Origin: Salipaludibacillus daqingensis
Lineage (GTDB): Bacteria; Bacillota; Bacilli; Bacillales; Salisediminibacteriaceae
Reading direction: 5' to 3'
NCBI RefSeq assembly: GCF_029891575.1
Contig: NZ_JARZHF010000003.1
Location: forward strand, 248,001-312,000
Length of the DNA: 64,000 bases
The notes under the pieces were generated by a model. The model was not told the DNA's origin, made no database searches, and saw only the letters and a program-made list of their open reading frames with translations. Positions 19,302-38,639 of this stretch are shown piece by piece; positions within the stretch are counted from its first letter, which is position 1, and every line of letters begins with the position of its first letter. A program made the position numbers and the translations under genes.

Positions 19302-19347
19302 GTCGTTCCATCTCCTTACTCTTATGCCTTAAAGGTCTATTGAAAGG

Positions 19348-19376
19348 AAAAGGAGCAGAACACGCCTGCTCCTTTT
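19348..19376 (-). terminator. Attenuating stem-loop between binding protein and permeases
   Basis: AAAAGGAGCAG (19348-19358) pairs perfectly with CTGCTCCTTTT (19366-19376). The T tract behind it on the minus strand is short and interrupted, so partial termination or protection of the upstream mRNA is more likely than a full stop. Confidence 0.65.
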
Positions 19377-19390
19377 AATCCAATTGCTGT

Positions 19391-20698: not shown

Positions 20699-20813
20699 TG
20701 TGTACCCCCTTGTTTAATTAGGCTTAACGCCTTTTAAATCTAAAAGAATAATTACCTCATCATGCCTAAAATCGAGAAAGAGTAAAATTCGTTCACCTCT
20801 CCGTTTCTTTTTT

Positions 20814-20827
20814 ACTAAAATTTTATC
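20814..20827. promoter_or_regulatory. Candidate LacI-type operator of the alpha-galactoside operon
   Basis: A TAAAATTTTA palindrome (20816-20825) lies just past the predicted transcription start. It shares its 10-bp core with the operator AGTAAAATTTTACT before the second LacI gene. Confidence 0.55.
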
Positions 20828-20840
20828 TTTCTGTAATTAG

Positions 20841-20869
20841 AATATAACAGATTAGGTAACCGCTTTCAA
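20841..20869 (-). promoter_or_regulatory. Promoter of the alpha-galactoside importer operon
   Basis: On the minus strand TTGAAA (20869-20864), 17 bp, TATATT (20846-20841). This is close to the SigA consensus with ideal spacing, about 145 bp before the binding-protein start. Confidence 0.65.
20855..20868. promoter_or_regulatory. cre-like (CcpA) site overlapping the -35
   Basis: On the minus strand TGAAAGCGGTTACC matches TGNAANCGNWNNCA except for the last base. It overlaps the -35 hexamer, where CcpA binding would repress in the presence of a preferred sugar. Confidence 0.6.
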
Positions 20870-20976
20870 GTGAAAAATTAAAATTTCTAAAAATTTATTT
20901 ACTAGCTGTATATCAGGCAATAATCCTTATATACAAGTGATTATTTCCTTTTTTAGTCATCAGACTCATTTGAATG

Positions 20977-21005
20977 TTGAACAAAATATAAAACTGTGGT
21001 AACTT
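20977..21005 (+). promoter_or_regulatory. Promoter of the second LacI gene
   Basis: TTGAAC (20977-20982), 17 bp, TAACTT (21000-21005), with TG one base before the -10 (extended -10). Confidence 0.5.
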
Positions 21006-21013
21006 AAATATTA

Positions 21014-21027
21014 AGTAAAATTTTACT
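21014..21027. promoter_or_regulatory. LacI-type operator before the second LacI gene
   Basis: AGTAAAATTTTACT is a perfect 14-bp palindrome directly downstream of the predicted start site and 22 bp before the ATG. The position implies autorepression. Confidence 0.65.
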
Positions 21028-21049
21028 GAAAATCGATTGGAGGTGTACG

Positions 21050-22132
21050 ATGTCAAATTTAAAAGATGTCGCTCGAGATGCGAATGTTTCGATTGCCACG
21101 GTATCTCGAGTTTTAAACCGGGATCCTAATTTGTCTGTTGCTGATACAACGAGAGAACGAGTATTCCAGTCAGCAAAAAAATTAAACTATCTTCCTTCAT
21201 CTAAAAGAAAACAAACGATGTCAGAAGCTTCTCCTAAATTATCTATTGGGTTAATCATCTTCTGTTCAAAAGATCATGAATATGAAGACGAGTACTTTAT
21301 GAGTATCCGTAGGGGAATAGAATCAGCAAGTTTGAAATTAGGTTTTACTATTTCTTCCGTTATAAGGCTTGGCCAACATTCAATAGAAGAAACGAACTTC
21401 ACTGATTTGGAAGGACTCATCGTTGTTGGGAATATTTCAGATAGTATTGTTCAACAAATCTATGCGCAACATGACAGAGTCGTATTCGTAGACGAATCAC
21501 CAAGAACAGACTTATTTGATAGTGTCACATCAAATTTTTTCGGTGCTGCAACCCAATTAATGGAGTATATGTTCTCTATGGGGCATAAAAAAATTGGCTA
21601 TTTAGGCGGAAGTGAAATTACTCATACTCCCTCCCACGAGTCAGATTTAGGAATCATTGAAAATATTGAAAAAATGAGGTTCATTCCATATAAAAGAGTG
21701 ATGGAAAAACGAGGCCTATATAATCCTCAGCACGTGTATATTGGAGATTGGTCTACGGATGCTGGCTACCAACTGATGAAACAAGCGATAAAAAAAGGCA
21801 ACCTTCCTTCTGCTTTTCTGATTGCAAGTGATCCGATTGCGATTGGAGCGATTCGTGCATTGCATGAAGAAGGACTAAATGTTCCTAACGACGTGTCCAT
21901 TGCTAGCTTTAACGATATTGAAATTGCTAAATACGTTAATCCTCCGTTAACAACAGCAAAGGTTTACTCAGAGCAAATGGGAAAATCAGCAGTAAAATTA
22001 TTAAGTGAACGGATTGAGGGTAGAGAGGTTCCAGCAAAAATCATTCATCCATGTCGAATCGAATATCGTGAGTCATGCGCTCCTTTGAAAGAGCATAGCG
22101 GTAATTCGGTAGAGGTTTCATTCGATTTTTAA
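21050..22132 (+). CDS. LacI-family transcriptional regulator (galactoside locus, second copy)
   Basis: A 360-residue LacI/GalR protein with helix-turn-helix [22 protein letters not shown] (residues 4-25) and hinge to about 55. The sensor domain carries IASDPIAIGAIRALHEEGLNVPNDVSIASFND near 262. It contains a roughly 20-residue insertion near 190-210 relative to its paralogue at 13.8 kb. GGAGGTG precedes the ATG. It is divergent from the importer operon and lies 84 bp before the GH4 gene on the same strand. The matching palindromes in both promoters make it the probable repressor of the importer, of itself and of melA. Confidence 0.9.
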   Translation: MSNLKDVARDANVSIATVSRVLNRDPNLSVADTTRERVFQSAKKLNYLPSSKRKQTMSEASPKLSIGLIIFCSKDHEYEDEYFMSIRRGIESASLKLGFTISSVIRLGQHSIEETNFTDLEGLIVVGNISDSIVQQIYAQHDRVVFVDESPRTDLFDSVTSNFFGAATQLMEYMFSMGHKKIGYLGGSEITHTPSHESDLGIIENIEKMRFIPYKRVMEKRGLYNPQHVYIGDWSTDAGYQLMKQAIKKGNLPSAFLIASDPIAIGAIRALHEEGLNVPNDVSIASFNDIEIAKYVNPPLTTAKVYSEQMGKSAVKLLSERIEGREVPAKIIHPCRIEYRESCAPLKEHSGNSVEVSFDF

Positions 22133-22141
22133 TTAGTGTTT

Positions 22142-22155
22142 TTTAAGCGCTTTCA
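22142..22155. promoter_or_regulatory. Candidate cre site between LacI and melA
   Basis: On the minus strand TGAAAGCGCTTAAA carries the symmetric core AAAGCGCTT of cre sites but has A where C is expected at position 13. It lies in the short gap before melA. Confidence 0.45.
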
Positions 22156-22216
22156 GTATCGCTATCTTCATAAACGATTAACAATATCAACAGATAATAG
22201 AAGGAGTGGAATGATT

Positions 22217-23521
22217 ATGACGAAAAGAATCACGTTTATCGGTGCAGGAAGCACGATTTTCGCAAAAAATGTTCTAGGAGATTGTATGTTTGTCCCTGCC
22301 CTCAATGGGTTTGAGTTTGCGTTGCATGATATTGATGAGAAGAGGTTACAAGAGTCGGAGCAGATGCTGAAAAATTTGGCGCAAAAGTACAATGACTCGA
22401 TTTCGATCGTGTCATATTTGGATCGAAAAGAGGCGCTTAATGGGGCAAAGTATGTTGTCAATGCGATCCAAGTTGGTGGATATGAACCGAGCACAGTGAT
22501 AGACTTTGAGATTCCTAAAAAATACGGCTTAAAACAAACAATCGGAGATACGATCGGCATTGGTGGCTTATTCCGTTCGCTACGAACGATTCCTGTCATG
22601 CTTGATATTGCGAAAGACATGGAAGAAGTGTGTCCGGATGCGTGGTTATTAAATTATACGAATCCGATGGCGGCGTTGACTGGGTTCATGCTTCGTTATA
22701 CAAATGTGAAAACGATTGGACTATGCCATAGCGTCCAAGTATGTACGAAAGATTTATTTGAGTCGCTCGATATGGATCATGAAGGTATTGAAGAACGAAT
22801 TGCTGGGATCAATCATATGGCATGGCTTCTAGAAGTGAAAAAAGATGGCAAAGATTTATATCCTGAAATTAAAAAGCGCGCTCGTGAAAAGCAAGCTGAA
22901 AAACACGATGATATGGTCCGCTTCGAATTAATGGATAAGTTCGGCTACTACATTACCGAATCTTCGGAGCATAATGCGGAATATCACCCTTACTTTATTA
23001 AGAGTGGCTACCCTGAATTGATTGAGCGATTTAATATTCCATTGGATGAATATCCACGTCGCTGCGTCAATCAAATTAACGAGTGGGAAGAGATGCGCGG
23101 GGAGATTGTCGGAAATGCTCAGCTCACACACGAGCGTTCCCATGAATATGGTTCGCGAATTATTGAGGCGATGGAAACGAATGTCCCGTTTAAATTTGGT
23201 GGAAACGTATTGAATACGGGTGGACTTATTTCTAACCTTCCTGAAAATGCATGTGTGGAAGTTCCGTGTATCGTCGATCGTAATGGGATTTTACCAACGT
23301 ATATTGGACGATTACCAGAACAATTAGCCGCATTGAATCGAACGAACATCAATACGCAGCTATTAACGATGGAAGCTGCGAGTACGTTAAAGAAAGAACA
23401 CGTGTATCAAGCAGCGATGCTCGACCCTCATACGAGTGCTGAATTGTCGCTAGATGACATCGTTGCGATGTGTGATGACTTGATTGAAGCCCACGGTGAC
23501 TGGCTTCCTGAATACAAGTAA
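22217..23521 (+). CDS. melA: Alpha-galactosidase, glycoside hydrolase family 4
   Basis: A 434-residue GH4 enzyme, which uses NAD+ and Mn2+ to cleave alpha-galactosides by oxidation at C3 and elimination. It starts [24 protein letters not shown], the Rossmann NAD site of the family. The conserved [38 protein letters not shown] and GLCHSVQ segments follow, the last containing the Cys and His that coordinate manganese with His at AGINHMAW. Two ATG codons (22211 and 22217) follow the ribosome site AAGGAG; 22217 gives the usual family start. MelA acts on melibiose and related sugars, the same products as the GH36 enzyme in this locus but by a different mechanism. Confidence 0.93.
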
Positions 23522-26129: not shown

Positions 26130-26161
26130 AACCACAACCATCTAAAACCTTGGTTGTGGTT
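26130..26161 (-). terminator. Stem-loop ending the mannoside/ManNAc-type operon
   Basis: AACCACAACCA (26130-26140) pairs perfectly with TGGTTGTGGTT (26151-26161), followed on the minus strand by an interrupted T tract. It is about 26 bp past the ROK gene and probably terminates the operon. Confidence 0.65.
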
Positions 26162-26186
26162 ATCGGTCGTATATTTAAAAACATAC

Positions 26187-27083
26187 TTATAATCTTTTGA
26201 CTATAGGTAAATAAGAGGCTCCAATGACACCAGCTTTTGTTCCTAATTTTGCAGGTTGAATGTCAATCGATGCTCTTAAGCTTGCATATACTTTTTCTTT
26301 TACTGCTGGAATAAGGGACGGTAGAATAACATCTTTTCCTATCATGACGCCGCCACCAAGAACAATCATTTCTGGGTTAATCACATGGACGATATTGGCA
26401 ATCCCTGATGCTAAATGTTCCATCCATTCATTGAACATTTCAACAGCTAATTTTTCGTTATTTTTTACACGTTTTAATAACTCTTTCGCTCCATCTTTCG
26501 ATTGAAAAACATCTTCTACTTTTTCTTTTATCGCGGTTCCCGAAGCTAATGATTCCCACGAACCAACATTTAACCCTTCACGTTTTGGACCTTCATTCGT
26601 AATAATCATGTTCCCAACTTCTCCTGCGCTAAACTGTGCCCCCGTTAGTATTTGACCGTTCAAAACAATTCCAGCACCGATCCCTGTACTAATCGTAATA
26701 TAGACCATGCTTTTTGCTTTATTTCCTGCTCCAGCATAGTATTCACCAACTGCAGCAGCATTTGCGTCATTTTCAAATAGGCACGTTTTACCCACGTTCT
26801 TTTCGAACTGTTTTACAAATGGATAGTTGTGCCATCCTTTTAAATTAGGTGGATCTAAAAATAGCCCATTTTGCAAATCCATCGGACCGGGGGCTGCTAC
26901 CCCAATAGTAGTTTCACTATTGGACAACCATTCGCCGATTAACCCTTTGATTTGATCCATTCCTTGATGAGGGTTTAACGGGGTAGCCATTTCTCTATGG
27001 GCAACTATCTGACCATCAGGAGCTATGACTCCCGCTTTGATCGATGTCCCTCCAATATCAATGCCAATTCTGTTTTTTTTCAT
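26187..27083 (-). CDS. ROK-family sugar kinase lacking the zinc motif
   Basis: A 298-residue ROK kinase-fold protein. The ATP phosphate loop is GIDIGGTSIKAG near the start and the catalytic base is in ENDANAAAVGE near 104, followed by TISTGIGAGIVLNG. At the place where most ROK proteins have CxCGxxGCxE it reads NEGPKREGLNVGSWESLASG with no cysteine, so the zinc site is lost. The glutamate of that motif (SWESLASG) remains. The ATG at 27083 is chosen over a GTG 6 nt upstream. It follows the DUF4127 gene by 9 bp. It is likely a glucokinase- or hexokinase-like enzyme for the sugar released in this operon; zinc-less ROK proteins are known but less common. Confidence 0.87.
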   Translation of the reverse strand: MKKNRIGIDIGGTSIKAGVIAPDGQIVAHREMATPLNPHQGMDQIKGLIGEWLSNSETTIGVAAPGPMDLQNGLFLDPPNLKGWHNYPFVKQFEKNVGKTCLFENDANAAAVGEYYAGAGNKAKSMVYITISTGIGAGIVLNGQILTGAQFSAGEVGNMIITNEGPKREGLNVGSWESLASGTAIKEKVEDVFQSKDGAKELLKRVKNNEKLAVEMFNEWMEHLASGIANIVHVINPEMIVLGGGVMIGKDVILPSLIPAVKEKVYASLRASIDIQPAKLGTKAGVIGASYLPIVKRL

Positions 27084-27092
27084 AGTCACTCA

Positions 27093-28607
27093 TCAATCAT
27101 CCTTTCTTTGATGAACAAGAAAGCCGATCTCAAACGTTCGTTTCCAAGGTAAATACACATCAGAAATTTGAAATTGATCCATATTATTTGTTATCAGCCA
27201 TTCTTGCGCTCTTTCTAAAAATACACCTGAGACTCTTTTTTCTAGATCAACGGACTTTTCTCCTTCTGGAGCAGTTTCTCTTACAATTTTTCTTATTACC
27301 GCCTGATATAAATAATCTTCGAGCAAGCGAAGGGCAAGAACCTCTTCATTTTTCTTCTGAAAGTTCTTATTCTCTTTTTTCGCTAAATAGACTAATGCAC
27401 TTTGAGCGACTACCGTTCCAATTGTATTTCCAGCTGTATTCCAGCCAGCATATGATAATAATTCTTTCCAGTTCATTTTATTTAATAAGCGAGGAATAAG
27501 CGCTGGGTCAGCTCCGTTTGCATAAGCTACATCCGCTACCGCTATTTCTTTTCCTTTATTTATATAACGTTCCATTCTATGTAACCATTCTCCTAAGTTA
27601 CGATCGGCCGTATGAACCCCCTTCAAATCAAGTTGCAAAGCTAGGTCTCCTTGTTTTTTGCCTGGTACATTAACAGCTAATACGATATCCGCGTCTTTAC
27701 CCTCGTCTTCAAAGGAACCTCCTAAAGCATGAATTTGACCTTTTACCGATTCGACTATCGGTCGGTCTTCATACATGGCGTTTATTAGAGAACCTTTCTC
27801 TCCACTGTATATCGGATAAAATGACGGGAGTGGCTCATGAGCCAATTCAAATACCATTCGTGTCGCCATAACACTGGCTACTTCATCCGCACCGGGATAT
27901 ATGAGAACTTGGTCGAATAATTTTTTTTCATCCGCCTTCTGAGACAACTGTTGTTGTTCTGATATATTGAAACCAAACTCTGACGTATCGTCTTGAGGAA
28001 ATATAAGTAAATCAATCACTTCTTTTTCCACTTCGTCCAACAAATACTGATTCAATTGGAAATTTCTTTTTCTCGTTTCTGTATAGTCTTTTATAATATG
28101 TGCAGGGATCACTCGAGTTACCTCTTCTATCACTCTCTGCGAATCTGACTCTCCTGTTTGCTCTAGTCGATGAGAATGAAAAGACAGTTTCCAAAGTTCT
28201 TTTCCGTATTCGCTCCAGTAGTCTTTCTCCTCTTCATTCACATAAGAGTTCGACAATCTCATCGTTGTGCTATAGGCATAAATTAAACAATCCGGGTTTT
28301 CCTCTTTCAATTCTTTAAGTAGATTCAATCTTTTTTTTGCTTCTGTGAGATCAATAGGGCTAACTCTCGAAGGAACAAGCCCTCCATAAATCAACATATC
28401 AATGGAAAGAACGAAACCTTTAACTTGATCTACTTGCTGGCGCAACCACTCATGTATAGCGCTGACATCTCCGGGATCCTTTAAAAAACCAAGTACCTCT
28501 TTATCAGGAATACGAACGGACCTACCTGCTACATTCATTAATTGAGCTGGAAGTAATCTTGTCACCGGGCGTGCATCCACTGGCAATAATGCAATATCAG
28601 ACATCAT
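27093..28607 (-). CDS. DUF4127 family protein
   Basis: A 504-residue cytoplasmic protein without signal peptide that I recognise as the DUF4127 family from the start LLPVDARPVTRLLPAQL and the segments LSIDMLIYGGLVPSR, YAYSTTMRLSNSYVNEEEKDYW, IFPQDDTSEFGFN and YPGADEVASVMATRMV. C-terminal features are VADVAYANGADPALIPRLL and YAGWNTAGNTIGTVVAQ. The many invariant acidic, Asn, Arg and His residues look catalytic, and homologues often lie in sugar operons, but no reaction is established to my knowledge. AAGGAGG precedes the ATG. It is preceded by the terminator after the alpha-mannosidase gene, so it and the ROK gene may be expressed at a lower level. Confidence 0.85.
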   Translation of the reverse strand: MMSDIALLPVDARPVTRLLPAQLMNVAGRSVRIPDKEVLGFLKDPGDVSAIHEWLRQQVDQVKGFVLSIDMLIYGGLVPSRVSPIDLTEAKKRLNLLKELKEENPDCLIYAYSTTMRLSNSYVNEEEKDYWSEYGKELWKLSFHSHRLEQTGESDSQRVIEEVTRVIPAHIIKDYTETRKRNFQLNQYLLDEVEKEVIDLLIFPQDDTSEFGFNISEQQQLSQKADEKKLFDQVLIYPGADEVASVMATRMVFELAHEPLPSFYPIYSGEKGSLINAMYEDRPIVESVKGQIHALGGSFEDEGKDADIVLAVNVPGKKQGDLALQLDLKGVHTADRNLGEWLHRMERYINKGKEIAVADVAYANGADPALIPRLLNKMNWKELLSYAGWNTAGNTIGTVVAQSALVYLAKKENKNFQKKNEEVLALRLLEDYLYQAVIRKIVRETAPEGEKSVDLEKRVSGVFLERAQEWLITNNMDQFQISDVYLPWKRTFEIGFLVHQRKDD

Positions 28608-28632
28608 CTTTATACCTCCTTATAAATATAAC

Positions 28633-28657
28633 GAACCTTTCTAGTCATGAAAGGTTC
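28633..28657 (-). other. Leader stem-loop before the DUF4127 gene
   Basis: GAACCTTT (28633-28640) pairs with AAAGGTTC (28650-28657). It lies between the GH38 terminator and the DUF4127 ribosome site and has no T tract. It could protect the 5' end of the downstream message. Confidence 0.4.
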
Positions 28658-28662
28658 TATGT

Positions 28663-28688
28663 AAAAAAGGGAGACAACATGCTCTCCC
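28663..28688 (-). terminator. Internal terminator after the GH38 gene
   Basis: GGGAGA (28669-28674) pairs with TCTCCC (28683-28688), followed on the minus strand by six Ts. It splits the long operon into eight upstream and two downstream genes. Confidence 0.75.
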
Positions 28689-28697
28689 CCGTAAAGT

Positions 28698-31316
28698 TTA
28701 TAAATCAGGATGCTGTCTCATCAATATATATGTCACTATTTCATGAGAAGCAACTGTGTCTTTCCATAACCCATTCTGAATGTCAATCTCCTTTAACTTC
28801 TCACCGTTTAAAGACCACTTTTCTACGTGACGCACGGTCGACTCAGCACGAAACACGATCTCTTTGTCCGTAGGGTTCCACAACCTGCATTTAAAGCCCT
28901 GTTCAACTGGACAAACGGCGCTCCATTGCAAATTTTGTTCGTCAATTGTCAACAAACCCTTCTCTTCTTGTGATTCAGCATGGCCGGAGAGGACAAGGGG
29001 AGGAACACGAAACTCTTTGACGGTTCTCAACCATTGGGCTTCAGATTTCGTCTCATTAAACGGTGTAACAATGAGATCAAATGAATAATCTCCTATACAC
29101 TGAGCTTCCGGAGTCTCTAAGCGCGGTCCTGCTCCTCCTCCTCTTGTACGGAGGTCATCTCGAGATAACCATCCAACACTTCGAAGTAAAGTTAAATGCA
29201 TTTCATCCTCTTGCTCTTTCTCGATCACTTGATATTCTTGCAGACCGCGCTGACCGAGTGCAATGCCTTGGGAACGTTGATCGTTATAACCCATAATGGC
29301 TGAGTGCGATGGTTCTACAACGACAGGAACTTCTGTCCCCTTTTTTGCATCTACTAACTCTTTCTTTTTTGCGGGGCGTGTGACCCATTCGAAACTAGAG
29401 TCACTTTTAGATTGATGGATACTAGTTCCAATAGGAAATATCGCTCGTAAACGTTGATCACTAGCATGATTACTTATATGAAAACTCACGTTCATATGCG
29501 TGGCTTCTGTTAATTGGAGATAGATCGTTACTTCTGATTGAACTGTCTCATTTACCGGACCTGTTCGATCTTTATTTAATTGTTTCGGTAGATTCAATAA
29601 AAGGCGGTACTCCATGGTCGAGTATCCATCATTTTCAAAGACTTGTGGAACTTCTGCTAGCTCAGCGAATGTCACTGGATCATTGATTGGTGGTGAATAA
29701 TTATATTCGTCACCCGCATCCATGGATGAATATATATTCATAAGTCCAGATATTTTATTACCAGATTTTTTATCTAGCATTGTTAGCGTTCCATCTTTTT
29801 CAAGTTCAATGAACAAGGAAGAATTCTCCATGTTCCAGCGCTCTAGTTGTTTAAGCTGATTACTTTCACCATATTTGACTTCAAAGGGTGTCATAGACAG
29901 TCCCTTTAAATCTGCGCAATGAAACCCAAAAGTATATTTTGTCATCGACTTGAAATCAGGGGCCGCATCTCTTGGTGAAGCAAAAAGCTCTCTTCTCTCT
30001 GCTTTGATAACAATGGGGGAGATCCTTTCACCTTTTTTGTTATGAAGATAAAACCCTTTTCCGAATTCTTCTTCTTGTTCATTTAACCATAGCTCCCCTT
30101 TAATGAACCCTGTGTAATTCCAGGGGTGAGGATTAAAAACTGAAAAATATTTATCATCGTCAAATGGGTATCTAGAAGCCAGCCCACTAACGAGCCCTGT
30201 TCTCATACCGAGAGTTTCTTGCGCCTCCGCTATGGAAACGTCCACTCGCTGTTCCAACTTCATTGTCCTCGTTTCCATTTCTCTATGTACGTTATCCACA
30301 CTGCATCCACAAATGCTGTCGTGAGGGTGATTTTCTAATAGCAGCTTCCACGAATTTTCTAAGTAAGTTTTTCTGAAACGATGGTTGTTAATAAACGAAG
30401 CATAAGCAATTAAAGGCTCCACATGCCCTGTAAGTTTGTCTTCCATCCGCTGATTTTGTTCTTTTAGATACGTCCTTGTAGACAAGACATTCGGCAAAAT
30501 ATAAAAATGATTATTAGACCTCATTTCTCCTTGATGTTCTGGCAGACGGTCAGTACCTACTAAAATTTTTCTGACATCGCGAAGATAGTCTTCCAATGAG
30601 CTTTGTTTCCAATGAACACCGCCAACGCCTTGAATGGAATCAATGACTTCCTTCATACCTTTTAATGAAGGCATAAGATGGTCTCCACCGTTCGGTAACA
30701 GGAGTTGATCCGAATCTGTCCACGGTAGCACTTTCTCCGTGAAAGACTGGACAGCTTTTTCAGGATTTATCTCATTAAGCAGTGGTTGATAGTACCCATC
30801 AGGCAAGAATATCGCTAATACCGATGATCCATCTGGTGCTTTCCAAACAAATTCAGACTTCTCAGGTAAAACTCCCCTCCATAAAAATGAATTATTAATT
30901 TGAAATTGGTTCAATAATTGCGGCATTTGACCGATATGACCGAACGTATCAGGCAAATAACCAACTTTCTGAACGCCACCCAGTTGCTCCGCTTTTTTCA
31001 TGCCGATCTCTAAATTACGAATCAATGATTCACCTGAAACTAAAAATTCGTCCGCTAATACGTACCAAGGGCCAATAACTAAGCGCCCATTTTTAATATA
31101 ATCAATGACTTTATTATTTAATTCATCATCGTTCTCGATTAAATAATCTTCAAGGGCGGCTACTTGGCCATCTAAAACGAAGGTGTCAATCTCCTTTGAA
31201 TCAATCCCATCTAGAATCCGATCCATCACTTGCATAAACCGATGCCGGAACGTTTCAAATGGTAAGTACCACTCTCTATCCCAGTGGGTATGAAACACAA
31301 TATGTCCTGTTTTCAC
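28698..31316 (-). CDS. Alpha-mannosidase, glycoside hydrolase family 38
   Basis: An 872-residue cytoplasmic zinc-dependent retaining alpha-mannosidase. HTHWDREW (residues 9-16) supplies zinc ligands His11 and Asp13; Asp123 in YLPDTFGH is the expected nucleophile and zinc ligand; HPHDSICGCS near 328 holds the fourth ligand His. A central three-helix bundle and a long beta C-terminal half follow. Length and motifs are close to the MngB/bacterial mannosidase branch (about 870-880 residues). The start is a GTG that overlaps the stop of the FAD oxidoreductase (GTGA), with AAGGGTGG upstream. It should release alpha-mannose, or a mannosyl derivative, from an imported glycan. Confidence 0.93.
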   Translation of the reverse strand: MKTGHIVFHTHWDREWYLPFETFRHRFMQVMDRILDGIDSKEIDTFVLDGQVAALEDYLIENDDELNNKVIDYIKNGRLVIGPWYVLADEFLVSGESLIRNLEIGMKKAEQLGGVQKVGYLPDTFGHIGQMPQLLNQFQINNSFLWRGVLPEKSEFVWKAPDGSSVLAIFLPDGYYQPLLNEINPEKAVQSFTEKVLPWTDSDQLLLPNGGDHLMPSLKGMKEVIDSIQGVGGVHWKQSSLEDYLRDVRKILVGTDRLPEHQGEMRSNNHFYILPNVLSTRTYLKEQNQRMEDKLTGHVEPLIAYASFINNHRFRKTYLENSWKLLLENHPHDSICGCSVDNVHREMETRTMKLEQRVDVSIAEAQETLGMRTGLVSGLASRYPFDDDKYFSVFNPHPWNYTGFIKGELWLNEQEEEFGKGFYLHNKKGERISPIVIKAERRELFASPRDAAPDFKSMTKYTFGFHCADLKGLSMTPFEVKYGESNQLKQLERWNMENSSLFIELEKDGTLTMLDKKSGNKISGLMNIYSSMDAGDEYNYSPPINDPVTFAELAEVPQVFENDGYSTMEYRLLLNLPKQLNKDRTGPVNETVQSEVTIYLQLTEATHMNVSFHISNHASDQRLRAIFPIGTSIHQSKSDSSFEWVTRPAKKKELVDAKKGTEVPVVVEPSHSAIMGYNDQRSQGIALGQRGLQEYQVIEKEQEDEMHLTLLRSVGWLSRDDLRTRGGGAGPRLETPEAQCIGDYSFDLIVTPFNETKSEAQWLRTVKEFRVPPLVLSGHAESQEEKGLLTIDEQNLQWSAVCPVEQGFKCRLWNPTDKEIVFRAESTVRHVEKWSLNGEKLKEIDIQNGLWKDTVASHEIVTYILMRQHPDL

Positions 31317-32677
31317 GTCACTTCCACCCTTTCTACATACTCCGGTTTAACAATATGACCATGTTCATGTAAGTATTTCTGCAAACTGGTTAGATCAATG
31401 TCTCTCACAGATACTTTCTCCTCTGAAGCGATTCCTGCTGCGGTTCCTACTGCTTCACCCATAGCTGCACACGTTGCTTGAATTCTCGCAGAGGAATGGG
31501 CGGAATGCGTGGCAGACAAACATCTTCCTGCAACTAGAACGTTATCAAAATCTACGGGAACAAGAGAACGATAGGGAATATCATAGTACTCATTTTCTTT
31601 GATATCTGTTAACTCTCCGCCTTCCCCTTTAGGATTATGAATATCGATAGGGTAAGCTCCATGAGTGATCGCATCATGAAATTTCCTCGCATATAAAACA
31701 TCATCTCTCGTTAACACATAATCACCAACAATTCGCCGAGTTTCTCGGATGCCGATGTGTGAGCCTGTCGTTGAAATATACGCTCTTTCCATTCCTGGCA
31801 CTTCGTTCTTTAGTACACGCATAACTGCGTGCGCTTGGTTTAAACTTTCTAATTCCGCTGCTGTAATATCTGATCCTGAAATACCGCTCTTTAAGACCAC
31901 TCTCGTCGTATTTACCAAGACTTCATCTCGACGATTCGTCGACACAAAGAATATATAATCTTGAGGCAAAGGGAACTCCCCTTTATTTTTGTATTCTTTT
32001 ACTAAATCTTTAAATCCAGCAATGGAGACGAGTTCCTCGTCTTCAATAAACATGAAATGTTCGCTGTTTGATTGGCAGTATTGAATAACTTCACCCATAT
32101 TGACATTAGCAATTTTAAACATCTTTGTCATCGCCTGAGTCAACCCGTCTTCTTTACGACCAACGACGTATTGCCCCCCGGCTAAATGAACCAAATCCGC
32201 ATCACCTGATGTATCGATGAAATAGTCGGCAGTTACGAGTTGTAACCCACTCTTATTATGAATCACTACTCCTTTAACCGTTCTTCCTTCTTTCACCACA
32301 TCGATTAATACTGTATGAAAAAGGAGTTCAACATCATACTTTTCCACCGTTTCATTTAGAACTTGTTTTAAAATTTCTACATCAAATCCACGGCTTTCTC
32401 CAGAGGCACCTTCCCGCAGAACCACATCATCACGAATATCTTGAAAGATGCCCTTCACTAATGGCTTGTCTTTGACGGAAAAAGGCATAAATGGCCCAAC
32501 CAGTGCTTGTGTGGCATTTCCACCTAGACAATTACTTTTTTCTATAAGCAGTGTTTTAGCACCTTTCCTGCCAGCAGCACAAGCAGCTGTTACGCCAGCC
32601 CATCCGCCACCGATCACTACCGTTTCATAATGAGCTGTGACAGGAAGAGTCGTTTCATATCTAAAATCAGGTCCCAT
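31313..32677 (-). CDS. FAD-dependent oxidoreductase of the sugar operon
   Basis: A 454-residue flavoprotein of the FAD_oxidored (PF12831-like) family. The FAD site is ETVVIGGGWAGVTAACAAGRKGAKTLLIEKSNCLGGNATQ (from about residue 18), and the C-terminal FAD contact is DFDNVLVAGRCLSATHSAHSSARIQATCAAMGEAVGTAAG near 400. No signal peptide is present. ATG 32677 is chosen because GAAAGG lies 6 nt upstream; ATG 32683, overlapping the permease stop, would have almost no spacing. Both ends overlap or abut neighbours, so it is translated as part of the sugar operon. Homologues are often annotated vaguely. Oxidation of a sugar hydroxyl before or after glycan cleavage is an inference. Confidence 0.85.
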   Translation of the reverse strand: MGPDFRYETTLPVTAHYETVVIGGGWAGVTAACAAGRKGAKTLLIEKSNCLGGNATQALVGPFMPFSVKDKPLVKGIFQDIRDDVVLREGASGESRGFDVEILKQVLNETVEKYDVELLFHTVLIDVVKEGRTVKGVVIHNKSGLQLVTADYFIDTSGDADLVHLAGGQYVVGRKEDGLTQAMTKMFKIANVNMGEVIQYCQSNSEHFMFIEDEELVSIAGFKDLVKEYKNKGEFPLPQDYIFFVSTNRRDEVLVNTTRVVLKSGISGSDITAAELESLNQAHAVMRVLKNEVPGMERAYISTTGSHIGIRETRRIVGDYVLTRDDVLYARKFHDAITHGAYPIDIHNPKGEGGELTDIKENEYYDIPYRSLVPVDFDNVLVAGRCLSATHSAHSSARIQATCAAMGEAVGTAAGIASEEKVSVRDIDLTSLQKYLHEHGHIVKPEYVERVEVT

Positions 32678-32679
32678 TG

Positions 32680-33612
32680 TCATCCTTTCACAGCTCCTTT
32701 CATTACACCGCCGATAAAGTATTTTTGCATAAAGATAAAGAAGATGATAATTGGTAAAATGGAGATGATCGAGCCAGCTGCTATTAGTCTCCAATCGGAA
32801 GAGAAGCTGCCCGCTAAAGCATTTACACCAAGAGGTAAGGTATACATACTTGTATCATCCAAAATGATTAACGGCCATAAAAAATCTCCCCAAGACATCA
32901 TAAATGTGAAAATAGCTAGTGTGACTAATGACGGTTTCACAAGTGGCATAAGAATTCTCAACCAAATTTGGAAACTGTTACATCCATCTATTCGCGCCGA
33001 TTCTTCTAATTCATAAGGAACCGTCATGAACGCCTGTCGAATTAAAAAGATACCGAAAGCTGTTGTCGCATGTGGGAGAATCACCCCTGCGTACGTGTTA
33101 TTCAACCCTAGGTCCAAAGCTAATAAATAAATAGGAATCATCAATAATTGGAATGGAATCATCATCGTACTTAATATTAAAATAAAAATGATATTCTTCC
33201 CTTTAAACTTCATTCGCGCTAATGGATAAGCTGCCAACGAGCATAATACAAGATTTAATAAAACCGTTACGAATGAAACAAGCGAACTATTAAATAAATA
33301 TCGCCAGAAGGGGAACGCCTCCATGACTCTAGCGAAATTTGCCAAAGTCGGCTGTTCAGGAATGAATTTAGGAGGATAAGCAAAGATATTTTCTGCTCCA
33401 GATTTCAAAGCCGTAGATAATAACCATAAAAATGGTCCTATTGTTACAATGGTCATCAAAATTAATAGCGAGTATATAAACAGATTATAAAGAAATTTAG
33501 TGAACGGCGTTTTCTTTTTTATTCTTTTCGGCTTTTCTTCTTTCTGAGAATGTTGAGTAATCGATGATTTTTTCATTTCCTCTTCCTCGTCTTTAAGTAC
33601 ACGAAGTCCCAT
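32680..33612 (-). CDS. Sugar ABC transporter permease (MalG/UgpE type)
   Basis: A 310-residue permease with a 40-residue charged N-terminal tail and six helices. The EAA loop ELEESARIDGCNSFQIWLRILMPLVKPS lies near residue 200, and it ends GGVMKGAVKG as is usual for this subfamily. GGAGG lies 7 nt before the ATG, supporting the long N-terminus. It pairs with the next upstream gene. As in the alpha-galactoside operon there is no ATPase gene nearby, so a shared MsmX-type ATPase is expected. Confidence 0.92.
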   Translation of the reverse strand: MGLRVLKDEEEEMKKSSITQHSQKEEKPKRIKKKTPFTKFLYNLFIYSLLILMTIVTIGPFLWLLSTALKSGAENIFAYPPKFIPEQPTLANFARVMEAFPFWRYLFNSSLVSFVTVLLNLVLCSLAAYPLARMKFKGKNIIFILILSTMMIPFQLLMIPIYLLALDLGLNNTYAGVILPHATTAFGIFLIRQAFMTVPYELEESARIDGCNSFQIWLRILMPLVKPSLVTLAIFTFMMSWGDFLWPLIILDDTSMYTLPLGVNALAGSFSSDWRLIAAGSIISILPIIIFFIFMQKYFIGGVMKGAVKG

Positions 33613-33630
33613 GTTTCTTCCTCCTATCTA

Positions 33631-34494
33631 TTAAGCTACTTTTTCTTTTTTACTCATAACTTTCAAGTTTATAATGGAAATAATCAAGGTGATTCCGAAT
33701 AATACAACACCTATTGCACTTGCATATCCCATGTTCAAACGACTAAACGCTTGTTCGTAAATAAGAAATACAATGGTCTTCGAACTATTAAGGGGTCCCC
33801 CACCTGTCATGACATAGATCTCCTCAAACACTTTCATAGCTGAAATGGAAGACATTATGCTTACAATCAGGATAGAAGGAGCCAATAATGGAATCGTGAC
33901 ATGAATGATTTGCTTGAATTTACTTGCTCCATCAATTTCCGCTGCTTCATATAAGTCAGATGGAATTGATTGCAATCCAGCTAAATAGATAAGCATGTAA
34001 TAGCCTAACCCCTTCCAGATGGTTACAGCCATGACCGCAAAAATCGCCGTAGATGTGGACGTGAGCCAGTTAACTGAGCTTAGTCCCATCAGATCTAATA
34101 TGTAATTAAGTACTCCTTGTTCTGCATAAACCCATTTCCATGTGATCCCAACAACAACCATTGAAGTTACAACCGGTACGAAATAAGCTGATCTAAAAAA
34201 ACCAATACCTTTCACTTTCTGATTCACTAATATTGCTAGAAAAATAGGTAATATAACCAAAGATGGCACGACAACAATTAAATATAAAAACGTTTGCCCG
34301 AGGGCTTTCCAAAACAAATCGCTCTCAATCATCGTTTGATAATTCTCCATCCCAACAAAATTAGGATCTTGTATAATATTATAGTCTGTAAAACTTAACC
34401 AAACTGCTTGAACGAGAGGATAAAAAATAATTAACCCTAAAACAATACAGCCTGGAAGGAGAAACAGATACGGGGCAATCTTACTTTGTTTCAT
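33631..34494 (-). CDS. Sugar ABC transporter permease (MalF/UgpA type)
   Basis: A 287-residue six-helix permease starting PYLFLLPGCIVLGLIIFYPLVQAVWLSFTDYN, with the EAA loop LYEAAEIDGASKFKQIIHVTIPLLAPS near residue 180 and MTGGGPLNSSKT near 227. Both motifs are those of carbohydrate-uptake-1 permeases. It lies 18 bp before the second permease gene and 3 bp after the ROK kinase gene. Confidence 0.92.
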   Translation of the reverse strand: MKQSKIAPYLFLLPGCIVLGLIIFYPLVQAVWLSFTDYNIIQDPNFVGMENYQTMIESDLFWKALGQTFLYLIVVVPSLVILPIFLAILVNQKVKGIGFFRSAYFVPVVTSMVVVGITWKWVYAEQGVLNYILDLMGLSSVNWLTSTSTAIFAVMAVTIWKGLGYYMLIYLAGLQSIPSDLYEAAEIDGASKFKQIIHVTIPLLAPSILIVSIMSSISAMKVFEEIYVMTGGGPLNSSKTIVFLIYEQAFSRLNMGYASAIGVVLFGITLIISIINLKVMSKKEKVA

Positions 34495-34497
34495 TTA

Positions 34498-35406
34498 TTA
34501 GAACTCCTTTCCTTCGACTTTCTTTATGATTGTAAAAGCTGCTCCATAAATACCAGCACGATTTCCTAAACTAGCCGAACGCACCAACGGAGAAGGTTGA
34601 GGATTTTGTTTCAAGCATGTTTGGAAATCTTCCCACCAAATGTCTTTCGCATGAATGACTCCCCCCCCAATTAAAAACAATTCAGGGTTCAATCCTTCAG
34701 CTAAGGAATCTATGAATAAAGCTAATTCATGAATATACGATTGAACGACAGGCACAACATCCCCCACATGATGGTGATAATCATTAAAAACATCTGCACC
34801 ATGCCGATAGCATCTTCCGGTTTGTTCACATGCTCTCTCAACAAAAGCTGTTCCTGATAAATAAGCTTCTACACACCCTTTTCGACCACAATTACACAGC
34901 CTACCACCAGGAACCAAATTGGAATGTCCCCAGTTTCCGCCTTTAAAAGAAGCGCCTCTAGATAATTTTCCATCAAACATATTCGCTCCACCCACACCAG
35001 TTCCTAACGTAACCATCACAACGGATTGGGTATGTGGATGGTTACCACGCCACATTTCTCCGACTAGGGCCATGTTCGCATCGTTATCTACAACTACTGG
35101 AAGTTTATAAGTTTCCTCTATAAGGGATTGCAAATTTACCCCTGTCCAACCAGGTAAGTTTTCTGAAGCGAAGTCTACTTTTCCATTTAGATAATCAATG
35201 TTTCCAGCAGAGCCAATTCCAATTCCGACGATATTGAATTTTTTATTGAGTAATTCTGAAATCACTCTCAATAATCCAGATAAGATCTCTTTTCTCCCTT
35301 TTTCTGCTCTTGTAGGAACGTTTATTTCCTCGCACCAATCACCATTACTAGTAATAATTGCTCCTTTGATAGCTGTTCCTCCAATATCTACACCAATGAC
35401 TTCCAT
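34498..35406 (-). CDS. ROK-family kinase, candidate N-acetylmannosamine kinase
   Basis: A 302-residue ROK kinase. The phosphate loop is VDIGGTAIKG near the start, the catalytic region VVDNDANMALVGE near 105 and the zinc motif CNCGRKGCVEAYLSGTA near 170 with an upstream GGNWGHSNL His. It therefore keeps the complete CxCGxxGCxE site, unlike the ROK protein at 26 kb. Two genes upstream encodes NanE, which interconverts ManNAc-6-phosphate and GlcNAc-6-phosphate, so phosphorylation of ManNAc (NanK role) is the likely task. ATG 35406 is chosen over a GTG 9 nt earlier. The substrate call rests on context. Confidence 0.85.
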   Translation of the reverse strand: MEVIGVDIGGTAIKGAIITSNGDWCEEINVPTRAEKGRKEILSGLLRVISELLNKKFNIVGIGIGSAGNIDYLNGKVDFASENLPGWTGVNLQSLIEETYKLPVVVDNDANMALVGEMWRGNHPHTQSVVMVTLGTGVGGANMFDGKLSRGASFKGGNWGHSNLVPGGRLCNCGRKGCVEAYLSGTAFVERACEQTGRCYRHGADVFNDYHHHVGDVVPVVQSYIHELALFIDSLAEGLNPELFLIGGGVIHAKDIWWEDFQTCLKQNPQPSPLVRSASLGNRAGIYGAAFTIIKKVEGKEF

Positions 35407-35421
35407 TATATTCACACCCGC

Positions 35422-36273
35422 TTAGTACAATTTTCCTGTCACAGACTTCGCTGTTTTTTCTTTCATTTCTATGGAAGAGTCAAAATCTTCTAGAGCAAGA
35501 CCCGTACATAATAAATCAATCACTACAAGCTGACCTATTTTTGCTGTCATCGAGCCACCCTCAAGAGGTGATTCTTTCCCGCCGCTTAGCAAGACTATGT
35601 CAGCTAGCTTGGTTATAGGTGACCTAGCATGATGTGTAATAGCAATCACTTTAGCACCATTTTTCTTTGCTATTTGCAGAGAGTCGATTGTATCTTTCGT
35701 AGAACCTGATACAGAAAGACCTATGACCACATCTTCCGATCGAACCGTTGCAGCTGTCATCGCTTGGAAATGTGAGTCCGTTATTGCTTCAACACTGTGG
35801 CCTGTGCGTAAAAAACGACTCTTGGCATCTAAAGCCGTTATACCTGAAGTCCCCACACCAAAAATGTAGATGGATCTCGCTTTTAATAGCATGGAAAGTC
35901 CTTCATTTAGAGAATTTTCGTCAATCATTGCTTTTGTTTCCTGAACAGCTTGGATGATGTGAGAGGTGATACTGTCTATAAAGCTCTCTTCCTTCGTTTC
36001 ATTTTTTGTTTCTTGAGATTGAGCAGAAATATCCTTCGCTAAAGAAAATTTAAATTCCTGATATCCTTTAAAACCTATTTTTCTACAGAAACGAAGAACC
36101 GTTGTTTCTCCCACCTCAGCTTTGTCAGCCAAATCGGTTACTGATGAATACATCACCTCATCCAAATGGTTCAGTACAAACTCTGCAACTTTTTGCTCTG
36201 ACTTGGTTAAAGCTTTTAAATGACTATCAATTCGAATTGCTACCGGTGTGTTTTTATCTACAGGATGAATCAA
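35422..36273 (-). CDS. RpiR/MurR-family transcriptional regulator
   Basis: A 283-residue regulator with an N-terminal HTH_6 domain (about residues 10-85: LTKSEQKVAEFVLNHLDEVMYSSVTDLADKAEVGETTVLRFCRKIGFKGYQEFK) and a C-terminal SIS sugar-phosphate domain (about 115-250: IYIFGVGTSGITALDAKSRFLRTGH and GLSVSGSTKDTIDSLQIAKKNGA). RpiR proteins sense phosphosugars; next to NanE this is typically GlcNAc- or ManNAc-6-phosphate. The start is TTG at 36273, overlapping the nanE stop (TTGA), with GGGGG 7 nt before. It sits inside the operon it presumably controls. Confidence 0.92.
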   Translation of the reverse strand: MIHPVDKNTPVAIRIDSHLKALTKSEQKVAEFVLNHLDEVMYSSVTDLADKAEVGETTVLRFCRKIGFKGYQEFKFSLAKDISAQSQETKNETKEESFIDSITSHIIQAVQETKAMIDENSLNEGLSMLLKARSIYIFGVGTSGITALDAKSRFLRTGHSVEAITDSHFQAMTAATVRSEDVVIGLSVSGSTKDTIDSLQIAKKNGAKVIAITHHARSPITKLADIVLLSGGKESPLEGGSMTAKIGQLVVIDLLCTGLALEDFDSSIEMKEKTAKSVTGKLY

Positions 36274-36977
36274 TGTACTTCCCCCTTTACTCTTTGGTTT
36301 AATTTCATCCCTTCAGCGAAATCTTTCGTAATGATTTGCGGCCTCGTAATCGCTGAACCGACGACCACTGCATAAGCACCTATACTTAGAGCTTGCTTCG
36401 CATGATCTGGTGTCTTGATTCTTCCCTCAGCTATAACAGGAACAGAGCAACAATTAACCAAGTTTTCAATAAGCTCGAAGTCTGGTCCAGAATGAGTTGG
36501 AGAATATTCTGTGTAACCTGAAAGCGTAGAAGAAATGCAATCCACACCTAACTTTTCAGCCTTCATCCCTTCCTCTACCGTTGAAACATCAGCCATGATA
36601 GGGATACCTAAAGGTTTTATATACTTAATCAATGACTGAAGCGTTTCTTGATTTGGGCGAGATCTATTTGTCGCATCAACCGCAATCATAGACACTCCTG
36701 CCTCAATCAACTCATCTACTTCTTCTTTTGTAGCTGTAATATACACTGGGCTATCAGGATAATCTCTTTTAACTAATCCTATAATAGGCAGTTCGACTTC
36801 TTTCTTTATAGCAAGAATATCTTCTTTACCGTTGGCACGAATTGCCACTGCTCCGCCTTGTTTAGCAGCTTTCGCCATTAATGCCATGATTTCAGACCCA
36901 TGTAACGGTTCATCATCCAAAGCTTGACAAGAAACAATTAGAGAGCCTTTAATCTTTTCAATTATATGTTTAGTCAT
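36270..36977 (-). CDS. nanE: N-acetylmannosamine-6-phosphate 2-epimerase
   Basis: A 235-residue TIM-barrel epimerase that converts ManNAc-6-phosphate to GlcNAc-6-phosphate in sialic acid and ManNAc breakdown. Recognised by IKGSLIVSCQALDDEPLHG, RANGKEDILAIK, PIIGLVKRDYPDSPVYITAT, MIAVDATNRSRPN, ADVSTVEEGMKAEKLGVDCISSTLSGYT (catalytic Lys and Glu region) and VIAEGRIKTPDHAKQAL. Length is typical (about 230). An in-frame TTG at 37001 would add 8 residues; ATG 36977 fits the family better. No sialic acid aldolase (nanA) is in the window, so the operon seems aimed at ManNAc itself rather than sialic acid. Confidence 0.93.
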   Translation of the reverse strand: MTKHIIEKIKGSLIVSCQALDDEPLHGSEIMALMAKAAKQGGAVAIRANGKEDILAIKKEVELPIIGLVKRDYPDSPVYITATKEEVDELIEAGVSMIAVDATNRSRPNQETLQSLIKYIKPLGIPIMADVSTVEEGMKAEKLGVDCISSTLSGYTEYSPTHSGPDFELIENLVNCCSVPVIAEGRIKTPDHAKQALSIGAYAVVVGSAITRPQIITKDFAEGMKLNQRVKGEVH

Positions 36978-37013
36978 AGACGTCATCACCAGCTTTTTCA
37001 AAATATAAAGATG

Positions 37014-37042
37014 GAAAGAGGGAGATCTCCTCCCCCTCTTTC
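37014..37042 (-). other. Intercistronic stem-loop after the binding-protein gene
   Basis: GAAAGAGGG (37014-37022) pairs with CCCTCTTTC (37034-37042), with no clear T tract behind it on the minus strand. Its place directly after the binding-protein stop suggests mRNA protection or partial termination. Confidence 0.55.
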
Positions 37043-37046
37043 ATTA

Positions 37047-38426
37047 TTATTGAGCTAAAATTTGATTCCATTGTTCTTCCGCTTGATCGAGCGCTTCTTG
37101 TGGACTTTGTTGTTCAAACATAGCAGATTCCAATGCTTCTACCATTGCGACTCTCAAGTCTTCATAATTTTCCATAGGTGGGATAAGTACTTCACTATCA
37201 GGAAGTTGAGAGGCTGATACTACTCTCGCTTCTTCCTCAGGGGTAGGATCTTCCTCCATTTCTTGGAAAAATGGCTCATCTAAAGCTGTTTCAATAGATG
37301 GTAAGATCGCTGTTTCCTTTGAAAAATCAGTCTGGTTTTCTGCATTTGTCATAAATACTGCGAAATCAAGTGCCTCATCCGTGTATTCGGTTCCTTCAGG
37401 AATGACAAGATTCATAGCGGCTATATTCATCAGTCCGGTTTCACCCGTAATTTGTGGTGCGGGACGTGTGACTTCAAAAATATCTGGAGCATTCGTTTCG
37501 ATCTGGCTTAAGAACTGAGGTCCTGATGCCATGATCGCCAACTGCCCTCCTTGGTACATATCGATCATCGCCGAATGTCCTTCTGTTAACACTTCACGTG
37601 GAATTAATTCATTTTGATATAGGTTAGAAAAGTATTCAAACGCATCTAGACCTTCTGGCGTATTAAAAGCTGCTTCAGTCATTTCTTCGTTTGTTAAATC
37701 AACGCCCATCATGACGAGTGCTTCTAACACATGACTGCCGTCAAACGGTGGAAAATATCCATATTTCCCTGTTTCTTCTTTAATTTGTTCAGCGGCATCA
37801 TATAGTTCTTCAAATGTAGACGGAGGATCTTCTGAGTCTAATCCAGCTTGTTCGAAAATATCTGCGTTGTACATCGTTACTTGACTAGATAAGTACCATG
37901 GAACTCCGAATGTTTTTCCGTCAAAAGAGTTTGATATCCATGCTCCCTCAAAGTATTGATCTTTCACTTCCGAATCGATCAATTCGTCAACATTAATCAA
38001 ACCGTCTAACTCTGCTAATTGAGCGGCGAATTGAGGATTTAAATTAGCAACGTCAGGAGCGGTTCCACCTGCAACGGCAGACAAAATACGAGTCTCCATG
38101 TCACCCCAAGGTACATCCACCCAGTTTACAGTAACATTGTCATTCTCATCTTCAAACTTCTCAATTACTCCGTTGATATAATCATCAAAATCAGGAGATA
38201 ATTGCATCGTCCAAAATTCTATTTCAACTGCTTCTCCTGAGTCAGCTGCATTGCTGTTAGCATCATTATTATTACTATCGTCACTATTATTATTAGACTC
38301 TTCAGCTGTAGCTTCTTCGTTCCCTGATGCCGCATCATTATTGTTTCCACCACAAGCCGCTAAAACGATAACGAAAGACATACACATAAAGAAAAACCAT
38401 TTCATAGAATTACTCTTCAAAATCAT
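37047..38426 (-). CDS. Sugar-binding lipoprotein of ABC transporter
   Basis: A 459-residue extracellular solute-binding protein of family 1. The signal peptide (MKWFFFMCMSFVIVLAACGG) has its lipobox Cys25, followed by an Asn/Ser/Asp-rich tether to about residue 68. The mature part shows VEIEFWTMQLSPDFDDYINGVIEKFEDENDNVTVNWVDVPWGDMETRILSAVAGGTAPDV, the standard start of sugar-binding proteins. AAGGGGTGT precedes the ATG. It is the first gene of the ten-gene NanE/GH38/DUF4127 operon, so its ligand should be the glycan that operon degrades. Given NanE and GH38, a mannose- or ManNAc-containing oligosaccharide is likely. Confidence 0.92.
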   Translation of the reverse strand: MILKSNSMKWFFFMCMSFVIVLAACGGNNNDAASGNEEATAEESNNNSDDSNNNDANSNAADSGEAVEIEFWTMQLSPDFDDYINGVIEKFEDENDNVTVNWVDVPWGDMETRILSAVAGGTAPDVANLNPQFAAQLAELDGLINVDELIDSEVKDQYFEGAWISNSFDGKTFGVPWYLSSQVTMYNADIFEQAGLDSEDPPSTFEELYDAAEQIKEETGKYGYFPPFDGSHVLEALVMMGVDLTNEEMTEAAFNTPEGLDAFEYFSNLYQNELIPREVLTEGHSAMIDMYQGGQLAIMASGPQFLSQIETNAPDIFEVTRPAPQITGETGLMNIAAMNLVIPEGTEYTDEALDFAVFMTNAENQTDFSKETAILPSIETALDEPFFQEMEEDPTPEEEARVVSASQLPDSEVLIPPMENYEDLRVAMVEALESAMFEQQSPQEALDQAEEQWNQILAQ

Positions 38427-38458
38427 ACACCCCTTTTAATTAATCTTTTTTCAACGTT

Positions 38459-38472
38459 AGTAAGCGGTTTCT
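38459..38472. promoter_or_regulatory. Candidate cre site in the leader of the mannoside/ManNAc operon
   Basis: On the minus strand AGAAACCGCTTACT matches TGNAANCGNWNNCW with one mismatch (first base). It lies in the 178-nt predicted leader. Confidence 0.45.
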
Positions 38473-38610
38473 TTTTACCGGAAAAAATATAGCTTAAATT
38501 ACCTGCTAATCAATGAAACTGGTAACATTGCAAATTAACGAATGATCACCTTTTTACTTTGTGGACGATCCCCCTTCGGTAATTTTCAGAAAACTTTTAT
38601 TTATAAGTTG

Positions 38611-38639
38611 ACTATAGCATAGAAAGATATAAAAGTGAA
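38611..38639 (-). promoter_or_regulatory. Promoter of the mannoside/ManNAc operon
   Basis: On the minus strand TTCACT (38639-38634), 17 bp, TATAGT (38616-38611). It is the best SigA match in the gap and lies 185 bp before the binding-protein start. Confidence 0.55.

Follow-up and report, generated by a model that had tools for sequence, protein, structure and literature searches.

A 64,000-nucleotide stretch of the 4.58 Mb genome of Salipaludibacillus daqingensis (contig NZ_JARZHF010000003.1, positions 248,001 to 312,000; hereafter the window) carries a ten-gene minus-strand operon in which a protein of the DUF4127 family (PF13552) accompanies NanE, the 2-epimerase of N-acetylmannosamine-6-phosphate (ManNAc-6-P). 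With moderate confidence, we read this operon as a catabolic locus for a foreign glycan containing N-acetylmannosamine (ManNAc), in which DUF4127 would release ManNAc upstream of NanE. Across the order, DUF4127 and NanE co-occur far beyond chance, and the loci that hold both lack the PF00701 gene found in some other NanE loci. A conserved locus thus ties the widespread DUF4127 family to ManNAc, which makes its function directly testable.

The operon and its conservation

The operon runs from 26187 to 38426, a correction of the 26130-38639 given in an earlier note on this DNA, in the order sugar-binding protein (SBP), NanE, RpiR-type regulator, ROK kinase (ROK1), two ATP-binding cassette (ABC) permeases, flavin adenine dinucleotide (FAD)-dependent oxidoreductase PF12831, GH38, DUF4127 and a second ROK kinase (ROK2). 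All the genes named in that note are there on one strand, mostly overlapping or abutting as it described, with successive gaps from SBP to ROK2 of 45, -4, 6, 3, 18, -4, -4, 90 and 3 bp. Two hairpin or terminator-like stems (28633-28690, minus strand) occupy the 90 bp that separate GH38 from DUF4127, within the otherwise tight packing. A GHL10 gene 315 bp upstream is likely a companion of the operon with a depolymerising role, since GHL10 genes recur in relatives (24/40 NanE-linked loci of the order sample described below). Salipaludibacillus keqinensis (L002) shares all ten genes and their order, at 78-99% identity, and three other sampled genomes of the genus gave no DUF4127 match.

DUF4127, NanE and PF12831 across genomes

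Profile searches of 397 genomes of the order found DUF4127 in 69, and distances were counted at 73 DUF4127 places, the pieces of broken copies being counted once. NanE passed its own cut-off in 114 genomes; we kept matches of at least 162 bits (117 places in 101 genomes) and left out lower-scoring rows. NanE was then present in 58 of the 69 DUF4127 genomes versus 43 of the 328 others (Fisher p 1e-30; Fisher values throughout ignore kinship), and at 50 of the 73 places it lay no more than 20 kb from DUF4127. Every one of the 397 genomes gave a PF12831 match at E <= 0.001, probably through cross-matches of FAD domains, so only the nearness of strong matches is informative. With rows below 317 bits and nine just above left out, PF12831 lay within 20 kb at at least 58 of 73 DUF4127 places, or at least 62 if G125, G177, G096 and G184 are included, whose rows are 3-9 kb from a DUF4127; NanE and PF12831 were both within 20 kb at at least 46. 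The association of DUF4127, PF12831, GH38 and NanE that the earlier note proposed to look for in other genomes holds widely. GH38 is present in just 18 of 40 NanE-linked loci of the order sample, and so the mannoside is not core: of the mannose- and ManNAc-containing glycan that the note envisaged, ManNAc is retained as the best reading and GH38 becomes accessory.

Neighbours on the same strand within 11 kb were surveyed at 160 DUF4127 loci (26 named, 70 from the order, 5/7 plasmid and 59/60 from the phylum). The plasmid loci L131 and L135 were lost from this survey, and pruning of overlapping open reading frames (ORFs) removed the NanE of L109 (1.6 kb away) and both the FAD gene and DUF4127 of L131; near-copies remain, namely L002 with the window, and L005 with the identical L092. 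NanE was found at 55 of the 160 loci, 52 of which also have ABC permeases. These 52 almost always carry a ROK gene (50/52; the exceptions are L068 and L142, the latter with ROK on the other strand) and mostly PF12831 (46/52).

In a tree of 161 DUF4127 proteins, the NanE-linked members form two separated, supported clades (24 NanE in 28 rows and 30 in 38) plus the stray row L163. With the 11 kb limit, the NanE label requires 9 changes on the tree versus 45.8 in shuffles, at least 7 of them forced by starred branches. Eight of the 12 unlinked rows within the clades (L073, L078, L080, L081, L111, L112, L113 and L115) have a NanE 11-18 kb off.

What feeds NanE

We compared these loci with 20 of the 50 places where NanE occurs in a genome that lacks DUF4127. 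A gene of PF00701, which pools NanA and DapA, was present in 8 of the 20 versus 0 of 55 DUF4127+NanE loci (Fisher p 7e-6). The remaining places carried either another cluster (6/20; phosphotransferase system (PTS) EIIBC, judged by two representatives) or neither (6/20). Among all 160 DUF4127 loci, BLAST placed the PF00701 cluster in two, L016 and L018, neither of which has NanE. At L207, L209, L213, L214, L216 and L217, a PTS EIIBC-type gene adjoins NanE, mostly with RpiR and with neither DUF4127 nor PF00701; these are candidate ManNAc PTS operons (two of the six were Pfam-scanned). NanE thus seems to be fed by one of several routes: a sialic-acid-type lyase, direct PTS import, or DUF4127.

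The distribution of kinases points the same way. A locus on Carnobacterium pCAR50 consists of NanE, HAD phosphatase, DUF4127, PTS IIC and RpiR, and one on an Enterococcus faecalis plasmid of a lactose/cellobiose-type IIA, NanE, HAD phosphatase, DUF4127 and PTS IIC with a divergent RpiR; both lack ROK. Complementarity with PF00701, together with ROK at 50 of 52 ABC loci and at neither of these two PTS loci, suggests that DUF4127 would be the ManNAc-releasing step. The earlier idea that DUF4127 supplies a missing step gains from this complementarity and from PTS operons that hold little but NanE, phosphatase and DUF4127, although the reaction is read from gene company.

The S. daqingensis genome does encode nagA and nagB, as neighbours on a different contig (C9:62088-63986), so the NanE route can be completed; their reported absence is true of the operon and not of the genome. 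No nanA match exceeds the cut-off genome-wide (best 149 and 135 bits versus 382) and none lies in the operon, in agreement with the earlier note. The genome has no TagA/WecG match and no CsaB above cut-off, with one weak CsaB-like match (E 1.5e-6). Without TagA or a true CsaB, the glycan is probably foreign, and for the window it is probably a ManNAc glycan with alpha-mannose. A wall polymer as source, suggested previously, is accordingly plausible for a foreign polymer and unsupported for the cell's own.

Gene orders and neighbours

Gene orders vary among the loci and the set persists (neighbour clusters were named by Pfam scan of one representative each). Type A, which includes the window, runs SBP-NanE-RpiR-ROK-permease-permease-(GH38)-DUF4127, often followed by ROK, GHL10 and FAD. 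Type B runs SBP-permease-permease-FAD-GH38-ROK-esterase-DUF4127-NanE, and type C contains NanE, esterase, RpiR, FAD, permeases, SBP, GHL10, DUF4127, GH3 and ROK. Type D has a histidine kinase, response regulator, SBP, permeases, FAD and an exported-looking DUF4127, without NanE. In type E (nine loci, L098-L106), an exported-looking DUF4127 lies near SLH proteins and SecA-like, CsaB, TagO-type or DUF5693 genes.

Recurring enzyme neighbours are esterases (PF00756 and AXE1), which suggest acyl groups on the glycan of those relatives, GHL10 with DUF4985, and phosphomannose isomerase. Amino-sugar-type genes also recur, namely a NagA-like amidohydrolase with a NagB-like gene, GH20C, GH84 and GH3; at L138-L140, which belong to a different class of the phylum, the operon itself includes GH84 and a GNAT protein. 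Further clusters are Gfo/Idh, AP_endonuc_2, Glycos_transf_4 (TagO-type), Epimerase_2 (MnaA-type) and DUF5693. At the GH38-bearing loci L067, L071, L077, L116 and L117, a member of the phosphomannose-isomerase cluster is found close by, in keeping with mannose being a second sugar.

Among other plasmids, a Priestia locus reads AXE1-DUF4127-ROK-ManA-PTS-NanE-RpiR, and a Deinococcus locus has importer genes followed by overlapping FAD and DUF4127 genes; in Deinococcus ficus, DUF4127 adjoins a wecB polysaccharide cluster. No such company surrounds the DUF4127 of an Alkaliphilus plasmid, and the Subdoligranulum plasmid locus has no NanE. In the latter (S. variabile, L137, 9004-12371), a sugar-import cluster holds DUF4127 and, after it, a gene of the aminoglycoside-3-N-acetyltransferase family and a PfkB kinase. 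In other classes of the phylum, DUF4127 stands in a cell-wall context without NanE, beside YceG at L145 (9084-10922) and beside an SLH-domain protein at L174 (9269-10942).

The DUF4127 protein

The window's DUF4127 shows no signal peptide. Its AlphaFold2 (AF2) model is confident (pLDDT 89.8) and had no match among PDB structures at E <= 1e-3; with no clear relative, a hydrolase fold remains putative. Searching PDB sequences by profile also yielded nothing up to E 10, and the names DUF4127 and PF13552 were absent from a searched literature of 5.39 million papers. Across 97 aligned sequences R13, R81 and R117 are invariant, as are Asp residues including a DD pair, which would suit an enzyme role. 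A TIM barrel like those of GH84 or GH20, suggested at first by the DD pair and by the pattern of strands, was considered and rejected, the aligned pieces of the model being generic alpha/beta domains among the families that Foldseek listed.

The family occurs in a virus too, as shown by a full structural match to the 693 aa viral protein A0A346TNQ6 in BFVD (TM 0.83, 24% identity) and by a match of the PHROG family phrog_20208. Partial matches to phage records numbered 2 and 1, in records that lack annotation, and a viral-contig scan gave 41 stretches, none confirmed.

Proposed pathway and its weak points

In the pathway that we infer, secreted enzymes, probably including GHL10, would cut the glycan outside the cell and the ABC importer would bring in oligosaccharides. 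In the cytosol, GH38 would trim alpha-mannose where present and DUF4127 would free ManNAc (or ManNAc-6-P) from the glycoside. A ROK kinase would convert ManNAc to ManNAc-6-P and NanE would turn this into N-acetylglucosamine-6-phosphate (GlcNAc-6-P), leaving nagA and nagB to finish the path. RpiR would sense a sugar phosphate. One of the sugars is probably oxidised by the PF12831 flavoenzyme, a role that Gfo/Idh and AP_endonuc_2 proteins appear to fill in a few relatives. In the PTS relatives the sugar would enter already phosphorylated, so that a ManNAc kinase would be unneeded.

ManNAc is found in teichoic linkage units and capsules. It also occurs in secondary cell wall polymers, as described in the available parts of PMC6030368 and PMC5568421. 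If the proposed pathway is right, it could explain how bacteria reuse ManNAc-containing polymers, and PF12831 flavoenzymes would gain a context in glycan breakdown. Only tentatively do we go further and suggest that DUF4127 founds a new glycoside-cleaving family, possibly with a fold without solved relative, of which two subclades would be N-acetylmannosaminidases (a term absent from the literature searched). These would open a sialic-acid-independent ManNAc route to GlcNAc-6-P, used by many Bacilli on foreign wall polymers or exopolysaccharides, with PF12831 as redox partner.

Several points weigh against ManNAc release by DUF4127. Its function is deduced from gene neighbourhood, and its model has no clear PDB relative to lean on. 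NanE is missing within 11 kb on the same strand from 52 of 59 phylum loci and 21 of 26 named loci (all of L007-L027), so the family overall is not ManNAc-specific; the secreted type D loci keep importer, flavoenzyme and DUF4127 without it. The complementarity test covers 20 of 50 NanE places and does not tell NanA from DapA, and 12 of those 20 carry no PF00701 gene. A third PTS locus, that of Priestia, does carry ROK, along with manA. Finally, plain hydrolysis does not explain the regular company of PF12831, or its apparent export together with DUF4127 at four type E loci.

Alternative explanations

One alternative, which we consider unlikely, is that PF12831 makes a keto-glycoside that DUF4127 splits by elimination, as in known pairs of C3-oxidation and beta-elimination enzymes. 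The flavoenzyme's presence at most NanE+ABC loci, the overlapping FAD-DUF4127 pair in Deinococcus and the joint export at type E loci are all in its favour. So is the enrichment of AP_endonuc_2 (4/6 FAD-less versus 1/46 FAD-bearing NanE+ABC loci, p 2.7e-4) and Gfo/Idh (3/6 versus 4/46, p 0.026; some of the loci are close kin), which hints that in a few relatives this sugar-oxidising and isomerising pair can replace the flavoenzyme. However, PF12831 is missing from the DUF4127- and NanE-bearing operons of Carnobacterium, E. faecalis and Priestia, and type D loci combine a cytosolic-looking flavoenzyme with an exported-looking DUF4127. Two-step chemistry of this kind exists according to the available text of PMC10628242. 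The systems described there and in the accessible part of PMC10646112 likewise pair an oxidoreductase with a second glycan enzyme; theirs is a GMC flavoenzyme and not PF12831, DUF4127 has no Pfam kin, and the keto intermediate is hypothetical here.

Less probable again is that DUF4127 strips a substituent (a ketal pyruvate, a lactyl group or another acid) from ManNAc or a neighbouring wall-polymer residue and leaves the glycosidic bond uncut. The three invariant arginines would suit an anionic group, and secreted DUF4127 proteins are encoded near csaB, TagO-type and DUF5693 genes; CsaB pyruvylates the ManNAc of such a secondary cell wall polymer, as stated in the available part of PMC6030368. 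CsaB exceeds its cut-off in all nine type E genomes (p 4e-6), DUF4127 lying within 20 kb of it in 5/9, but is no commoner than elsewhere in type D genomes (2/9, p 1) or in the 51 other DUF4127 genomes (13/51, p 1). As the association is confined to type E, we make no claim of a pyruvylated glycan for the window. A 4,6-ketal would, moreover, presumably block PTS phosphorylation at O6, and the part of PMC6801904 available to us names no enzyme that removes pyruvate ketals.

Recycling of the cell's own wall ManNAc, from a teichoic linkage unit or a secondary cell wall polymer, is improbable: PMC6030368 and PMC5568421 place ManNAc in polymers of this kind from other Bacilli, but S. daqingensis lacks the TagA/WecG and genuine CsaB matches noted above. 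Equally improbable is that DUF4127 stands in for NanA as an aldolase yielding ManNAc from sialic or another nonulosonic acid, which would fit the PF00701 complementarity but not the absence of any DUF4127 match to PF00701 up to E 10, the exported members of the family, or the presence in E. faecalis of a lactose/cellobiose-type IIA next to NanE and DUF4127.

Comparison with known systems

The nan operon for sialic acid catabolism comprises NanA, NanK and NanE, often with an RpiR-type regulator. The window's operon resembles it in NanE, ROK kinase, RpiR regulator, ABC import and products that feed NagA/NagB. It differs in having DUF4127, PF12831 and GH38 where the genome has no NanA over cut-off, and no sialidase is among the operon's Pfam matches. 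The Bacillus cluster for recycling N-acetylmuramic acid comprises NamZ, MurQ and MurR and is similar by analogy, its one locus uniting an exo-enzyme, a regulator of the RpiR/MurR kind and an enzyme dedicated to a sugar phosphate; here NanE replaces MurQ, and PF07075 (NamZ_N) is matched neither by DUF4127 (E up to 10) nor in the genome. GH38 of the window is like bacterial GH38 enzymes (PDB 5kbp, 3lvt and 2wyh; E 3e-77), with all three Pfam domains. Mannosylglycerate hydrolase (NF007331) was rejected as its identity at 458.2 bits versus an equivalog cut-off of 1138.

Features of the operon and the rest of the window

The features are collected in table 1. The zinc-site ROK kinase claimed by the earlier note is ROK1, in which we found C-x-C-G-x2-G-C-x-E, which we take to be the ROK zinc motif; ROK2 lacks it. 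In a comparison with NanK, the N-acetylmannosamine kinase, ROK1 and ROK2, both of which match the ROK family, score 142.7 and 118.4 bits against NF047821 (cut-off 450), and 164.1 and 124.3 against NF003461 (cut-off 283). The PF12831 ORF was listed as 31313-32794. Its likely start is at 32683, an ATGA overlapping the stop of permease 2, which makes the listed ORF 37 codons too long; read from this start, the protein shows no signal peptide.

Table 1. Operon genes and adjoining features, in coordinates of the window.
Feature	Coordinates	Strand	Evidence
GHL10 glycosidase-like protein, FIMAH domain, N-terminal hydrophobic segment	38742..41069	-	PF02638, PF22888
ABC sugar-binding protein (SBP_bac_8/SBP_bac_1), operon gene 1	37047..38426	-	Pfam
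Hairpin past SBP stop codon	37042-37014	-	
NanE, ManNAc-6-P 2-epimerase	36270..37001	-	PF04131 241.7 bits; NF002231 324.2 bits versus cut-off 189
RpiR/MurR-type regulator (HTH_6 + SIS)	35422..36273	-	Pfam; 4 bp overlap with NanE
ROK sugar kinase 1, zinc motif present; candidate ManNAc or hexose kinase	34498..35415	-	PF00480 + motif
ABC permease 1	33631..34494	-	PF00528
ABC permease 2	32680..33612	-	PF00528
FAD-dependent oxidoreductase PF12831, 456 aa	31313..32683	-	405 bits versus cut-off 27, full-length match
GH38 alpha-mannosidase-type enzyme	28698..31316	-	PF01074, PF09261, PF07748, all above gathering scores
DUF4127 (PF13552), proposed ManNAc-releasing enzyme	27093..28607	-	472.6 bits versus 27, residues 5-495
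ROK sugar kinase 2, zinc motif absent	26187..27089	-	PF00480

The window gave 0 Rfam matches at gathering scores. A separate alpha-galactoside-type locus (15274-23521) has a GH36 melibiase, permeases and an SBP on the minus strand with a divergent LacI regulator and GH4 glycosidase; a GH4 gene (90% identical) also adjoins the operon in S. keqinensis L002. The gene at 59516-63910 (minus strand) encodes 1464 aa that combine DUF6359 with endonuclease/exonuclease/phosphatase and Ig-like domains; its product resembles a large surface or secreted protein of the nuclease type.

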